Positions 1,124 through 16,674 of a DNA stretch of 43,120 bases are shown here, piece by piece; within the stretch, counting starts at the first letter, position 1; the number at the start of each line of letters is the position of its first letter. A model generated the notes under the pieces. The model made no database searches and was not told the origin of the DNA. It saw only the letters and a program-made list of their open reading frames with translations. A program made the position numbers and the translations under genes. The DNA comes from Candidatus Pacearchaeota archaeon (lineage in GTDB: Archaea; Nanobdellota; Nanobdellia; Pacearchaeales; GW2011-AR1). The stretch covers positions 1 to 43,120 of the forward strand of contig JAFCEO010000004.1 of NCBI GenBank assembly GCA_017609085.1, given 5' to 3'.

Positions 1124-1147
1124 TAATTATTCTTTTTGGATTATAAA

Positions 1148-3835
1148 ATGAGGTGGAAAATCTTAGTAATATTGATTATTCTTATTGGAATAAATACTGT
1201 ATCAGCATCTTTTTTAGTAGGAAACATTAATATAGAGGAAAATTATGCGCCGTTAACTAGTTTAAGGGGATGGATTAATTTTAGCTTAAAAAATGAAGCA
1301 GGAGACTCTTTATTAAAAGCTTTTGATAGCAATATAACGCTTCTGGATTTTTTAAATGAAGGAGGGGCAAAATATAGTTGTGTTCCACTAGATTGTGGAA
1401 AAGGTTATGAGAGTTTAAATGAAATAGAGTCGTTTTCTTTAAATTTCGGAGAAAGCAAAATTGTAGGGTTAAAGTTAAATGGAAACCTCACAGATGATCC
1501 GATAACTGACATATCATTTCAAGTTACAAGTACTGCTCAACAAACCTGTTATAACCCTTTGCAAATAGACTTTCTAAATGATGGAATAGATTGGTATTTT
1601 TTAAAATCAGCTCATATTTTTACTTGCCCCGAAGAAAGTGGATGTTTTAAGAAAGAAGAAGCAAACGAAGAATTTGAAATAACTTCATTTCCTTTATGCG
1701 AAAAAATAACATTTGAACCTTACTCTTCATTCGAAATAGGCGCAAACATAACAAATACAAGTTCAGAATCTGCAGAATTTGAAATGTTGGTCCTGGACGA
1801 AAATCTTAATGAAGTCTCAAGTTGTACTTTTTCCACTCAAGGAAGTGGAAAAAAAAGTTGTGTTATTATCCCCAATTTAACAGAAAGAAAAGATTTTTTT
1901 GTGTGTATAAAAACTTCTTCCTCAAATTATGATGGGCTATACAAAATTGAAGCAGAAAGTAACGAACCTTGTGGCTTTTTTAAAAATTTGAATAACGGCT
2001 TCACAAAAGATTATGATATTTTTGTTAAAGGAAGCAAGTACAAAGAAATTGGAAGTTTTTTAATGAATGATGATGAATTTAAAAAATTTAATGACCAAAG
2101 TTTAATAGGTTACTTAAATGAATATCTTTATGATAAGTATAATTACGACTGTCAAGAAGGATGTATTATACCAATCAAGTTCTTATCTGGAAAACAACAA
2201 ACAATAACTCTCTCTAATATAAGTCTAAGATATAATACAATTTCGGGACCTACATCCACTTCCAGAGTTTATGATGTTGTTGAAACTTCTGTAAAAATCA
2301 ATATGGAGTTTCAGAAATTAGATTTGAAAAAAGCTAATTTAAATGTCCCCTCTGCAATAGGTAGCTATATGGCGAAAATTTATTTGAATAATGAATTACT
2401 GGGGAGTCAAAAAATAAATGTGAGTAATTTTATTAAAATTGAGGGTATAAATATCCGAGAAGTGCCAGCTGCTATACCTGTCAAGTTCATTGTTTATGTA
2501 TCTGAAAATGCTACTAAATATAAATGGGACTTCGGTGACGGGACAATAGAAGAAACAGAAATAAATGAAATTTTTCATACATATTCTTCACTTGGTAATT
2601 ATACGCTTAGAATAGAAGTTGAAAACAATCTTGGAAAATCGAGTGAAGTATTTTACATAAATGTAAAAAGTCCTAAAAATGAAATTAAAAACGCATTCGG
2701 AATTAAGAGAAAAAAATTAAATGAAACCCTAGAAGATTTGGAGAGTATAACAGGATGGTATAAATCGGAGATAAAGAAAGTGGCAGACTTAGAGAGTATT
2801 AAAATTGAATTAGACAATTTAGAAAAACAATATGAAATTGCTTCATCACCTGAAGATTATGTTGAAATAATGAGTAATTTAATAAAAATAGAAGTTCCTT
2901 CTTTAAGAGTAAATCAAAACCATATGGAAGATTATTTTCTAAATAAAGACTATATAAACTTAAATTATTTAGAAGAATTTGTTGGGAAGAAAGTAGAAAA
3001 TGCAGAAGAATACAAGAATGCCCTTTTAAAGTGGTTTAGTGATAATATTGACATAGATATAGAAAGCAAAAATTATTTTTTAAATTATAATGACAAAGAA
3101 ACGCCTTTGTTAACTGTTTTCACATTAAAAATAAAACCGAAACAAGAAACAGATGAGTCGTATTTAATTATAGATAAAAGTTATGACGAGATAATCTTCA
3201 ATCCAAATCAAGACTATAATGAAAAAGTAATAAAATCAGGAACAATAATAACTTTCCCTGAACTTAAAGAAGAAAAGGTCATTGAATTTATCCTCCCAGA
3301 AAAAATCGAGATTGTAGAGCTTCCTTTTTATATTTCTCCAAGGATTTCTGAATTGTCTGACTTTGGAGTTGGAGAAGGAAAAATTGAACCTTGTGATTAT
3401 GATGGAAGATGTGAGAAAGATTTAGGAGAAACTTCTGAAAACTGTCCTTCTGATTGCGGACCGTGGAAAAAAACCGCACTTTATTTAGCTATTTTGTTAT
3501 TTGTAGCTTTTATAGTTTACATTATACTGCAAGAATGGTATAAAAGATATTATGAAAGCCATTTATTCAGAAATAGAAATGATTTATTCAACTTAGTAAA
3601 TTTTATAAGCAATGCTCTACGTCAAGGTTTAGAAAAAAAAGAGATAATTAGAAAATTGAAAAAGCATGGATGGAGCGGGGAGCAGATAGTTTATGCTTTC
3701 AAAAAAGTCCAGGGAAAAAGAACAGGGATGTGGGAAATTCCGATTTTTAGATATTGGGAAAAGAAAAAGTTAAAAGAAGAAATTGAAAAAAGACAACGAA
3801 TAATAATAAAAAGCCCACCCCAACAAATAAAATAA
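1148..3835 (+). CDS. PKD-domain membrane-anchored surface protein
   Basis: The track begins at a TTG (1136); ATG 1148 gives MRWKILVILIILIG..., a clean signal peptide ending near VSA. The 895-aa product has a long ectodomain with several cysteine pairs, a PKD-like domain around residues 430-505 (KWDFGDG motif, then YTLRIEVEN), a helical stretch, a Cys-rich segment near residue 748 (CDYDGRCEKDLGE...ENCP.DCG), one transmembrane helix (about 776-798) and a cytoplasmic tail of about 95 residues. The tail carries a short helical module (ALRQG...KKHGWSGEQI) that reappears in the tail-anchored protein near 42.9 kb. It is probably a surface or envelope protein that passes its anchor into the cytoplasm; binding partner and function are unknown. 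Confidence 0.75.
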   Translation: MRWKILVILIILIGINTVSASFLVGNINIEENYAPLTSLRGWINFSLKNEAGDSLLKAFDSNITLLDFLNEGGAKYSCVPLDCGKGYESLNEIESFSLNFGESKIVGLKLNGNLTDDPITDISFQVTSTAQQTCYNPLQIDFLNDGIDWYFLKSAHIFTCPEESGCFKKEEANEEFEITSFPLCEKITFEPYSSFEIGANITNTSSESAEFEMLVLDENLNEVSSCTFSTQGSGKKSCVIIPNLTERKDFFVCIKTSSSNYDGLYKIEAESNEPCGFFKNLNNGFTKDYDIFVKGSKYKEIGSFLMNDDEFKKFNDQSLIGYLNEYLYDKYNYDCQEGCIIPIKFLSGKQQTITLSNISLRYNTISGPTSTSRVYDVVETSVKINMEFQKLDLKKANLNVPSAIGSYMAKIYLNNELLGSQKINVSNFIKIEGINIREVPAAIPVKFIVYVSENATKYKWDFGDGTIEETEINEIFHTYSSLGNYTLRIEVENNLGKSSEVFYINVKSPKNEIKNAFGIKRKKLNETLEDLESITGWYKSEIKKVADLESIKIELDNLEKQYEIASSPEDYVEIMSNLIKIEVPSLRVNQNHMEDYFLNKDYINLNYLEEFVGKKVENAEEYKNALLKWFSDNIDIDIESKNYFLNYNDKETPLLTVFTLKIKPKQETDESYLIIDKSYDEIIFNPNQDYNEKVIKSGTIITFPELKEEKVIEFILPEKIEIVELPFYISPRISELSDFGVGEGKIEPCDYDGRCEKDLGETSENCPSDCGPWKKTALYLAILLFVAFIVYIILQEWYKRYYESHLFRNRNDLFNLVNFISNALRQGLEKKEIIRKLKKHGWSGEQIVYAFKKVQGKRTGMWEIPIFRYWEKKKLKEEIEKRQRIIIKSPPQQIK

Positions 3836-3876: not shown

Positions 3877-3890
3877 CAAAATTTATAAAC
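3877..3890 (+). promoter_or_regulatory. TATA/BRE promoter of the arvABC operon
   Basis: CAAAATTTATAAAC lies about 50 bases before the ATG at 3937. The predicted start of transcription near 3910 falls inside the inverted repeat at 3894-3915, leaving a leader of about 25 bases. Confidence 0.55.
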
Positions 3891-3893
3891 TAA

Positions 3894-3915
3894 TTTTCTT
3901 TTTAAAAAAAGAAAA
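3894..3915 (+). promoter_or_regulatory. Inverted repeat at the arvA transcription start
   Basis: TTTTCTTTTT (3894-3903) and AAAAAGAAAA (3906-3915) are perfect reverse complements separated by AA. The repeat sits just downstream of the TATA box, where a repressor would block initiation. Low-complexity A/T tracts are common here, so this is only a candidate operator. Confidence 0.25.
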
Positions 3916-3936
3916 CGTGGAACGAGTTTTAAAAAG

Positions 3937-4575
3937 ATGATAAGAATAATAAGAAATTTCGTAAAAAGAATTTTTTCTGGGATATTTAAAGGTAAAAAAG
4001 AAATAAGTTTAGGTTTCTATGGGCCTCCAAATGCAGGAAAAACTTCTCTTGCCAATAGAATATGTAAAGACTGGACAGGAGAGGAAATAGGACAAGTAAG
4101 TAAAATACCTCACGAAACAAGAAGTGTACAGTTTAAAGAAAAAGTAGAAATAGAATATAAAGGCAAAAAACTTACGTTTAAAATTGTTGATACTCCGGGC
4201 ATTGCAACAAAAATAGATTATGAAGATTTTATGAAATTTAAACTTAAGAAAAAAGATGCTCAAAAGAGAGCAAAAGAGGCCACCCAAGGGGTAGTGGACG
4301 CTATAAAATGGTTAGATGATATGGATGCTGTAATTGTTGTTTTAGATTCTACTAAAAATCCCTATAGCCAAGTTAATATAACGATTATCGGAAATTTAGT
4401 AGCTAGAAAAATACCTGTATTAATCGTTGGAAATAAGATAGATTTAAGAAAAAGCGATTTAAAGAGAGTTGAAGCGGCATTTCCAGAATATGAAGTAGTT
4501 GGAATTTCAGCGAAATACGGCAAGAACATGGAAGAATTTTACGAATCTCTTTTTAGATTGGCAAAAAAAGCTTAA
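3937..4575 (+). CDS. arvA: Small GTPase ArvA/OapA (archaeal vesicle / origin-associated GTPase)
   Basis: The 212-aa protein has complete GTPase motifs: G1 GPPNAGKTS (29-37), G3 DTPG (85-88), G4 NKID (166-169) and G5 SAK (191-193). DWTGEE..., PHETR, REATQGV-like and LDSTKNP...QVN segments match the euryarchaeal Era-like GTPase known as OapA in haloarchaea and as ArvA, where it drives extracellular vesicle formation. The first 20 residues (MIRIIRNFVKRIFSGIFKGK) form a basic amphipathic helix with hydrophobic residues every 3-4 positions, as in Arf/Sar1 GTPases, suggesting reversible membrane binding at the inner face of the cytoplasmic membrane. It is followed by the arvB- and arvC-like genes, the same gene set as in Euryarchaeota. 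Family assignment is strong; the vesicle role is carried over from those homologues. Confidence 0.85.
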   Translation: MIRIIRNFVKRIFSGIFKGKKEISLGFYGPPNAGKTSLANRICKDWTGEEIGQVSKIPHETRSVQFKEKVEIEYKGKKLTFKIVDTPGIATKIDYEDFMKFKLKKKDAQKRAKEATQGVVDAIKWLDDMDAVIVVLDSTKNPYSQVNITIIGNLVARKIPVLIVGNKIDLRKSDLKRVEAAFPEYEVVGISAKYGKNMEEFYESLFRLAKKA

Positions 4576-4609
4576 AAATAAATCTAAAAGTTAAATTCGA
4601 AAAAAGAAG

Positions 4610-5008
4610 ATGGTGAAGAAAAAAAATAAAAAAGTAAAAGGCTTAACAATCCAGTTTATACCCTTCGCTGAAATAGAAAATTTAGAAAGTGGAGAAAGGA
4701 TCAGAAAAATATTGGATATAATCTTGGGAAATAAGATAATTATTCTGCAAGGAAAATTGCTACCTGAAGAAGAAACCAGATTAATAGAAGATACCATGGC
4801 AATGGTTGGACATGTCAAAAATTTTAAAGGAATCGAGCTTGCAGTCTTAAATCCTAGTCTTGATGATAAAGGGTTTTTTGAAAAAATGAAGCATAATCTT
4901 GCTCGTGTTTTGGGAGCTCAAGAAGCAATAACAATAATTGGACCTGCTTCTATTGTAAGAGAAATGAAAAGAAATCCAAAAAAAGTGGAAATACTAATGA
5001 ACAAATAA
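4610..5008 (+). CDS. arvB: ArvB/OapB family protein (DUF2073)
   Basis: The 132-aa protein begins with a basic tail, then GLTIQFIPFAEIENLESGERI, and contains ILQGKLLPEEETRLIEDTM, the recognisable core of DUF2073 (OapB/ArvB). It lies 34 bases after the GTPase gene on the same strand, and the family almost always neighbours that GTPase. It is probably a cytosolic partner or regulator of the GTPase; no catalytic motif is visible. A 75-aa antisense ORF across its 5' part is a shadow. Confidence 0.82.
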   Translation: MVKKKNKKVKGLTIQFIPFAEIENLESGERIRKILDIILGNKIIILQGKLLPEEETRLIEDTMAMVGHVKNFKGIELAVLNPSLDDKGFFEKMKHNLARVLGAQEAITIIGPASIVREMKRNPKKVEILMNK

Positions 5009-5063
5009 CAAAGCATAGAATTCTGAAAAAATAATTTAAAGAGAGAATAAAGAGATACAGCAG

Positions 5064-5078
5064 GAAAATTTATATATG
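5064..5078 (+). promoter_or_regulatory. TATA promoter before arvC
   Basis: GAAAATTTATATATG is centred about 68 bases before the arvC ATG at 5140, giving a predicted leader of roughly 40 bases. It suggests that arvC and the CCA enzyme can be transcribed apart from arvA-arvB. Confidence 0.5.
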
Positions 5079-5139
5079 TTCATTCCTTGAATCATTTAAT
5101 TATATTTTTGTATTTGATATAAAAGATGAAAAATTGAAA

Positions 5140-5544
5140 ATGCCGCACCAATGTGTTCATTGTGGAAAGATGTATGAAGATGCAGCTTCTGAATTGCTAA
5201 AGGGATGCAGTTGTGGAAGCCACTTTTTCTTTTTTGTTAAAGAAAAACAATTAGAAGAGCTTAAAAAGAAAACTATTGAATTAGATGAGGTAAATAAAAA
5301 ACAAGTAGAGAAAGATATCAGAGAAATGATTGGACTGGAAGAAGAAAAAGAAATTCCAGTTATCTTGGATTTAGAATCGATAAGAACTGCCGGTCCCGGA
5401 AAATTTGAAATAGATTTAGTTAATTTATTTTTAAAAAACCGCCCACTCATATACAAATTAGAAGAAGGAAAGTATATTATAGATTTAGCTTCAACATTAA
5501 AAGCGAGTACAGATGTGATAAAAAAGAAAACCAAAAAAAAATGA
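5140..5544 (+). CDS. arvC: ArvC/OapC zinc-ribbon protein (DUF2072)
   Basis: ATG 5140 (MPHQCVHCG...) is preferred over the TTG at 5134, because family members begin MPHQC. The 134-aa product has an N-terminal zinc ribbon (CVHCG, then GCSCGSHFFFF), an acidic/lysine-rich coiled-coil middle and a C-terminal helical part ending in a basic run. This is the OapC/ArvC architecture. It follows arvB by about 130 bases with its own promoter and precedes the CCA-adding enzyme by 7 bases, so it probably shares a transcript with it. With arvA and arvB it completes the three-gene set associated with vesicle formation in Euryarchaeota. Confidence 0.82.
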   Translation: MPHQCVHCGKMYEDAASELLKGCSCGSHFFFFVKEKQLEELKKKTIELDEVNKKQVEKDIREMIGLEEEKEIPVILDLESIRTAGPGKFEIDLVNLFLKNRPLIYKLEEGKYIIDLASTLKASTDVIKKKTKKK

Positions 5545-5551
5545 GATAAAG

Positions 5552-6796
5552 ATGGAAAAAATAAAAGAGGTTCTTAAAAAAGAAAGAGAGCTTATTAAGC
5601 TTGAAGAAAAAGAGAAAGAGAAAATAAACAAAGAAACTGAAAAATTTGTTCGAGAATTAGAGAAAGAAATAAAAAATAAGAAAATTAAAGCAGATGTTTT
5701 TATAGGAGGTAGTTTGGCTAAAGACACTTTAATAAAGAAAGATAAGTATGATATTGATATTTTCGTCAGATTTGATGAAAGTTACGATGATAAAAAAATC
5801 TCTGACATTCTTGGAAAAATTTTAAAAAAAGCAAAAAGAATCCCTGGCTCAAGAAACTACTTTCAAATCGAAAAGGACAAAATTATCTTCGAGGTAATTC
5901 CTGTTCTAAAAATAAATAAGCCTGAAGAAGCAAAGAATATCACGGACCTAAGTTATTTTCATGTCAATTATATAAAAAATAAAATAAAGAAGAATAAAAA
6001 ATTGGCAGACGAAATAAAATTGGCTAAGAGTTTTTGTTATGCTCAAAACTGCTATGGCGCTGAATCTTATATAAAAGGATTTTCTGGTTATGCTCTAGAA
6101 TTATTAGTTAGCTATTATGGCAGTTTCTTGAAATTTATTAAGGCTGTAAAAGATAAAAAACAGGTGATTATCGATCCCTCAAAATTTTACAAAAATAAAA
6201 AAGAAGTAATGTTGGAATTAAATGAAGCAAAATTACAAAGCCCAATAATTTTTATAGACCCAACATTTAGAGAAAGAAACGCCTTGGCTGCTCTATCTTA
6301 CGAAACTTTTAAAAAATTTCAAGAAGCATGCAAAGATTTTTTAAAAAATCCCTCTCTTAAGTTTTTTAAAAAACAAGAGTTAGAAAAACAACTAAGAAAA
6401 AAACATAAAAATTTGATAATTGTAATGGCCAAAACAAATAGGCAAAAAGGGGATATTGCCGGAAGCAAGTTAAAAAAGTTTTACGAATTTCTTTGTTGTA
6501 AGGCTAAGAAATATTTCGAAATAAAGGTAAAAGAGTTTGAATATATAGAAAATAAAAACATCGGGAAAATTTATCTGTCTTTAAAAAAAAGAAAGAAGAT
6601 TATTCTTTCTGGACCTCCAATAACAGCAGTAGAACATCTTGCAAGATTTAAAAAGAAACATGAAAATTGCTTTATAAGGAATAAAAGAGCTTATGCTACA
6701 GAAAAAGAAATAAGTTTTAATGAATTTTTAAAAAGATTAAGAAAAGAAGAAGCTATTAAGGAAATGGGAATAACTAATATAAAATTAATTAGATAA
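5552..6796 (+). CDS. cca: Archaeal CCA-adding enzyme (tRNA nucleotidyltransferase)
   Basis: The enzyme adds or repairs the CCA 3' end of tRNAs in the cytosol using CTP and ATP. The 414-aa protein has the class I nucleotidyltransferase signature: FIGGSLAKDT followed by YDIDIFVRF, giving the GS and paired Asp metal ligands, and a third acidic position in IIFEVIPVL. The middle contains the GFSGYALELLVSYYG segment typical of archaeal CCA enzymes. The coiled N-terminus of about 45 lysine/glutamate-rich residues is usual for the family. The tRNA gene in this window does not encode CCA, so the enzyme is needed. It follows arvC by 7 bases. Confidence 0.9.
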   Translation: MEKIKEVLKKERELIKLEEKEKEKINKETEKFVRELEKEIKNKKIKADVFIGGSLAKDTLIKKDKYDIDIFVRFDESYDDKKISDILGKILKKAKRIPGSRNYFQIEKDKIIFEVIPVLKINKPEEAKNITDLSYFHVNYIKNKIKKNKKLADEIKLAKSFCYAQNCYGAESYIKGFSGYALELLVSYYGSFLKFIKAVKDKKQVIIDPSKFYKNKKEVMLELNEAKLQSPIIFIDPTFRERNALAALSYETFKKFQEACKDFLKNPSLKFFKKQELEKQLRKKHKNLIIVMAKTNRQKGDIAGSKLKKFYEFLCCKAKKYFEIKVKEFEYIENKNIGKIYLSLKKRKKIILSGPPITAVEHLARFKKKHENCFIRNKRAYATEKEISFNEFLKRLRKEEAIKEMGITNIKLIR

Positions 6797-16511: not shown

Positions 16512-16674
16512 GGCTCCATAGCTCAGCCTGGTTAGAGCACTGGCCTTTTACATTTACACAATCTTCAATAAAGATTGTATAAAATAGACGAGCTAATATT
16601 GTTAATTAAAGAAAAATACCTTAAAATAGAGTGAAGAAAGCCAGGTGTCGGGGGTTCAAATCCCCCTGGGGCCA
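16512..16674 (+). tRNA. tRNA-Lys(TTT) with an intron after position 37
   Basis: GGCTCCA (16512-16518) pairs with TGGGGCC (16667-16673), followed by A73; CCA is not encoded. D stem GCTC/GAGC, T stem GGGGG/CCCCC with loop TTCAAAT, and anticodon stem CTGGC (16540-16544)/GCCAG (16640-16644) are all intact. With the intron removed the anticodon loop is CTTTTAA, giving anticodon TTT (lysine). The intron sits at the canonical archaeal 37/38 site. Spliced length is 75 bases. Confidence 0.9.
16551..16638 (+). other. tRNA intron (88 bases)
   Basis: The intron separates A37 from A38 (because both flanks are A, 16550-16637 is equally possible). Its ends can pair as TTTAC (16553-16557) with GTGAA (16631-16635), forming the inner helix of a relaxed bulge-helix-bulge for the splicing endonuclease. 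Inside is a perfect 8-bp hairpin ACAATCTT/AAGATTGT. No ORF is visible in it. Confidence 0.8.

Follow-up and report, generated by a model that had tools for sequence, protein, structure and literature searches.

The stretch of DNA analysed here (the window; 43,120 nucleotides, G000:C12 of a metagenome-assembled genome of 583 kb that is 88% complete) carries an intact, genuine ArvABC (OapABC) locus, which is an ordinary member of a known family and has been vertically inherited in a Pacearchaeota archaeon. The sequence of the GTPase predicts that ArvA is a HAS-type, K+-activated enzyme of the TrmE-Era-EngA class that inserts into membranes and is activated by dimerisation, and that it is not a true relative of Arf. 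On balance, we favour a reading in which ArvABC is a K+-activated, dimerising and helix-inserting GTPase system that sheds vesicles, with ArvB as the promoter and ArvC as the brake of the process. New in the present work are the count of how widely the set is conserved, the pattern of its joint loss, the lineages that possess only ArvA and ArvC, and a K+-activated mechanism that can be tested.

ArvA was named from Haloferax and has been found in 14 archaeal phyla, seven of which belong to DPANN; among the genomes with ArvA, about 95% also encode ArvB and about 91% ArvC (Mills et al. 2024; PMC10927574). Thus, the novelty that the first-pass annotation implied for an arv set in DPANN is not borne out, and the locus is one more case from the Pacearchaeota that differs in nothing of kind from the DPANN homologues reported previously. 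In the same study, it is stated to be unknown whether every ArvA-family protein makes vesicles (PMC10927574). A full-text literature search with the full name of the family retrieved no paper besides that by Mills and co-workers, and no vesicle data from arv-bearing DPANN were found in the literature searched.

The arv locus and its phylogenetic position

The genes arvA, arvB and arvC are adjacent open reading frames on the plus strand and the gene of the CCA enzyme comes next. The features of the locus are as follows:

3882..3889 (+): TATA-box-like element TTTATAAA, 55 bp 5' of the arvA ATG (consensus match only, sequence scan)
3937..4575 (+): arvA (oapA), small GTPase of 212 aa (ORF list, Pfam MMR_HSR1, alignment, motif counts)
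3937..4005 (+): basic amphipathic helix MIRIIRNFVKRIFSGIFKGKKEI at the N-terminus of ArvA, candidate membrane anchor (hydrophobic moment)
4610..5008 (+): arvB (oapB), DUF2073 protein of 132 aa (PF09846, E 2.1e-17; AlphaFold2 model)
5069..5076 (+): TATA-box-like element TTTATATA, 71 bp 5' of the arvC ATG (consensus match only, sequence scan)
5140..5544 (+): arvC (oapC), DUF2072 zinc ribbon with a C-terminal domain (PF09845, E 4.2e-21; alignment)
5552..6796 (+): CCA-adding tRNA nucleotidyltransferase (PF09249, TIGR03671, synteny)

The start codon of arvA is the ATG at position 3937, whereas the feature in the first-pass annotation begins at position 3894. For arvC, the ATG at position 5140 (MPHQC...) is most likely the start codon and not the TTG upstream at position 5134, because the MPHQC start is common to nearly all ArvC relatives. 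Since TATA-like elements are located 5' of arvA and 5' of arvC, the arvA-arvB and arvC-CCA pairs may be transcribed separately, the latter from a promoter of its own.

Profile searches bear out the proposal that three adjacent Arv/Oap genes are present. ArvB matched the OapB family (PF09846) with 63.4 bits (cut-off 27) and ArvC matched the OapC family (PF09845) with 76 bits (cut-off 23), while ArvA, a small P-loop GTPase, was recognised by the Pfam model MMR_HSR1 (58 bits) and by the NCBIfam model small_GTP (TIGR00231). ArvB is encoded directly downstream of ArvA, and ArvC lies within two genes. The zinc-ribbon cysteines C5, C8, C23 and C25 of ArvC (CxxC...CxC) are invariant in 47 sequences and the C-terminal domain of the protein contains two GK[YF]x[IL]DL motifs. 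A structural model of ArvC was poor (pLDDT 60) and unfit for a fold search; the AlphaFold2 model of ArvB has a confident core (pLDDT 81). The CCA enzyme matched PF09249 and reached 240.7 bits with TIGR03671, which is under the equivalog cut-off of 281.3.

The OapABC proteins of Haloferax volcanii (HVO_3014, HVO_3013 and HVO_3012) belong to the same three families and are encoded in the same order, namely a GTPase with an N-terminal amphipathic helix, a DUF2073 protein and a DUF2072 zinc-ribbon protein. The window differs from H. volcanii by its DPANN lineage and by the CCA enzyme downstream of arvC; moreover, orc1/cdc6 was not found in it, and the function of its Arv system is predicted. An "origin-associated" role was rejected because none of the window proteins scanned matched Orc1/Cdc6.

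The suspected DPANN origin of the DNA proved to be correct. The nearest named relatives of ArvA are from Pacearchaeota, with 85% identity to the protein of RBG_13_36_9. The searches for relatives retrieved no euryarchaeal ArvA. In a maximum-likelihood tree of 79 proteins, the window ArvA groups with Pacearchaeota among the DPANN sequences, where the two proteins form a pair (L068; support 99/96) inside a large Pacearchaeota/Nanoarchaeota clade (support 100/94). The tree also contains Pacearchaeota- or Woesearchaeota-type arv loci on contigs that are labelled as Patescibacteria (L135), Aminicenantes (L131) and Euryarchaeota (L114), and these contigs are probably misbinned or mislabelled.

ArvA as a predicted K+-activated GTPase

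ArvA has a complete G1-G5 domain and is shorter than 250 aa. Its motifs are G1 GPPNAGKT, HETR, G3 DTPGI, G4 NKID and G5 SAK. The motifs were counted in 127 distinct ArvA sequences, for which an intact P-loop was required. All 127 possess the G1 asparagine (GxxNxGK[ST]), a second asparagine five residues past the G1 lysine and a G3 motif of the form DTPG[IL] that is devoid of the catalytic glutamine. With both asparagines present and the G3 glutamine absent, ArvA shows the sequence pattern of the K+-activated TrmE-Era-EngA GTPases, whose asparagine signature has been described for EngA, MnmE and FeoB (PMC3466195; see also PMC6310460). Indeed, the TrmE-Era-EngA-EngB-Septin-like HAS-GTPases (EngA/Der, Era, MnmE and FeoB) share with ArvA the GxxNxGK[ST] motif, the second asparagine at Lys+5 and the DTPG motif followed by a hydrophobic residue, and a profile search against the PDB returned Der/EngA, TrmE and Era on top. 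In contrast to these enzymes, ArvA consists of a single domain with an amphipathic helix, it has neither a KH nor a tRNA-modification domain, and its K+ dependence is predicted.

Like ArvA, eukaryotic Arf proteins have an N-terminal amphipathic helix, and membrane insertion and vesiculation have been proposed for both. However, true membership of the Arf family was rejected because ArvA scored only 19.6 bits with the Arf Pfam model (PF00025; cut-off 22.3) and the switch II glutamine is missing (DTPGI or DTPGL in 127/127). Contrary to a placement near Era and EngA, Arf was reported as the best HMM-HMM match of the Haloferax ArvA, and potassium, asparagine and hydrolysis are not mentioned in the main text of that paper (PMC10927574). 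The assignment to the TrmE-Era-EngA class is thus our own and is drawn from the sequence.

The N-terminal helix of the window ArvA has a net charge of +5 and a hydrophobic moment of 0.65, which is reached by about 0.02 of composition-preserving shuffles. Across 81 ArvA homologues, the median moment is 0.61 and the median net charge is +4, and the helix differs from shuffles of the same residues at p<0.05 in 77% of the proteins. A comparable helix has been predicted for the Haloferax ArvA (PMC10927574).

In the mechanism that we propose, ArvA would be cytosolic when loaded with GDP and membrane-bound when loaded with GTP, and would alternate between these two states. Binding of GTP would free the basic amphipathic N-terminal helix, which could then insert into the membrane from its cytoplasmic side, and dimerisation or assembly of ArvA via the G domains would bend the membrane until vesicles are shed. 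As ArvA is built like a HAS-type K+-activated GTPase, it would probably be induced to hydrolyse GTP when it dimerises and K+ occupies the active site, and not by a glutamine of the Ras/Arf type. ArvB would probably promote the assembly or activation of ArvA, and the zinc-ribbon protein ArvC would probably restrain it. We infer these two regulatory roles from the knockout phenotypes in Haloferax, in which extracellular vesicles (EVs) were about 2.9-fold fewer without ArvA, 3.1-fold fewer without ArvB and 1.65-fold more abundant without ArvC (PMC10927574). Likewise, vesicle shedding by Pacearchaeota is carried over from Haloferax, and this holds all the more for a part in host interaction or gene transfer, as considered in the first-pass annotation. 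The invariant asparagine pair offers a direct biochemical test of GTPase switching, a matter that the founding paper left open. A wider generalisation, which we put forward tentatively and would sooner doubt than accept, is that ArvA represents a membrane-remodelling branch of the K+-activated TrmE-Era-EngA GTPases that follows the logic of dynamin or MnmE and not that of Arf, that it sheds vesicles in host-dependent DPANN, and that it operates in a minimal ArvA-ArvC form in some lineages.

In two loci from different DPANN families (L002 of G144 and L017 of G010), arvA is interrupted precisely at the P-loop by an insert that resembles an intein. The insert ends with ...IAHN right before the T of GK^T, and the long reading frame is open throughout (678 aa in G144).

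Distribution, joint loss and gene neighbourhood

A survey of the operon across DPANN genomes had been suggested as a check. Of 148 genomes that were sampled from the phylum, 132 encode OapB (ArvB). The arvA and arvB genes are adjacent in all 80 named relatives, and arvC is located inside the fetched stretch in 74 of them. This adjacency of the three genes goes far beyond chance. If ArvABC sheds vesicles in Pacearchaeota, a large class that is rich in symbionts would encode one of the few defined archaeal vesicle machines in almost all of its genomes. ArvA relatives were found neither in viral contigs nor in plasmids and ArvC was not found in plasmids, and a virus- or plasmid-borne Arv system was rejected on this basis.

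All three components were checked in 30 genomes (14 with and 16 without ArvB). Each of the 14 ArvB-positive genomes encodes ArvA and ArvC, and 12 of the 16 ArvB-negative genomes lack all three proteins, among them G099 and G126, two genomes of the class that are very small and consist of one contig each; ArvABC is thus usually lost as a whole. In three further ArvB-negative lineages, arvA adjoins arvC and arvB is missing (G004, G083 and G132; loci L176, L174 and L175, respectively), and in the remaining genome (G128) arvA lies at a contig end. Where a single gene is missing, an incomplete draft assembly may in some cases be the reason. The G004 genome consists of one contig and is listed as 100% complete; in it, the arvA stop codon and the arvC ATG are 19 bp apart. 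In the ArvC of G083, the segment that connects the zinc ribbon to the C-terminal domain is shorter. A search with a 48-sequence profile gave no match to a hidden ArvB in the genomes that have only ArvA and ArvC. The retention of ArvA and ArvC in these lineages indicates that ArvB is not always needed, and they provide a natural test of its contribution.

FtsZ is encoded in 30/30 and SepF in 29/30 of these genomes, whatever their Arv state, so that a loss of ArvABC does not follow a loss of the division machinery. The arvABC genes are therefore mostly retained or lost together, and independently of this machinery. This pattern bears on the view that ArvABC in DPANN is mainly an envelope, cell-shape or division module and that the vesicles of Haloferax are a by-product. 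The genes are near-universal in the reduced genomes of the class, which could reflect a general envelope role, and deletion of oapA in Haloferax also altered cell shape and growth rate, with fewer rod-shaped cells. Moreover, ArvB has been reported to resemble SepF (PMC10927574), and SepF structures recur among the weak matches of our fold search with ArvB (3zig, TM by target 0.55), none of which was significant. However, ArvB showed no match to the Pfam SepF model (PF04472), the hhalign probability was 0.8%, and a genuine SepF is encoded elsewhere in the same genome (G000:C25). Homology of ArvB to SepF is accordingly not supported, the two sharing a weak topological resemblance. Given also the constancy of FtsZ and SepF, we regard an envelope or division module as rather unlikely in comparison with a vesicle-shedding GTPase system.

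The typical gene order in Pacearchaeota comprises a PKD-domain surface protein, arvA, arvB, arvC and the CCA enzyme, followed on the opposite strand by a TrmB-type regulator and a presenilin-type protease; in Woesearchaeota, arvA-arvB-arvC alone are conserved. The CCA enzyme is found at the arv locus in 28 of the 80 named loci and in 5/5 genomes of the window's family, and it was not found next to arv in the other loci fetched from the phylum. The first-pass annotation was hence right about the position of the CCA enzyme beside the set, but its significance does not extend beyond a gene order of Pacearchaeota. This local synteny is uninformative about the function of the Arv system, and the CCA enzyme was rejected as a part of it.

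The neighbourhood also has to be considered for the idea that the DPANN ArvA, like the GTPases Era and EngA, associates with ribosomes or RNA and that its gene shares a transcript with that of the CCA enzyme, in an operon linked to translation. The closest sequence neighbours of ArvA are Der, Era and TrmE, the CCA gene starts 7 bp 3' of arvC, and RNA polymerase and ribosomal genes follow about 10-20 kb downstream of the arv locus. We nevertheless consider this function improbable: the adjacency to the CCA enzyme is limited to the Pacearchaeota relatives of the window, a Pfam scan of ArvA found no KH or other RNA-binding domain, the conserved amphipathic helix suits membranes, and the Haloferax ArvA is associated with vesicles and drives EV formation (PMC10927574).

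A large putative surface protein with a PKD domain and a membrane helix at its C-terminus is encoded at 1136-3835 of the window (plus strand). In most loci of Pacearchaeota, and not in those of Woesearchaeota, the corresponding gene immediately precedes arvA. DPANN archaea are commonly host-dependent. In combination with the surface protein, this might suggest that ArvABC serves specifically in host interaction of a symbiont-like archaeon, by vesicle-mediated delivery or exchange, along the lines of the first-pass annotation. We would assign very little probability to such a specialised role, as arvABC also occurs in free-living Euryarchaeota (PMC10927574), and the two very small genomes without the set, G099 and G126, indicate that a reduced genome can dispense with it.

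The window also contains a tRNA gene (16512-16674, plus strand) whose anticodon loop holds an insert of about 88 nt, the size of an intron, and whose apparent anticodon is UUU (Lys). The gene was missed by ARAGORN and detected by Rfam.
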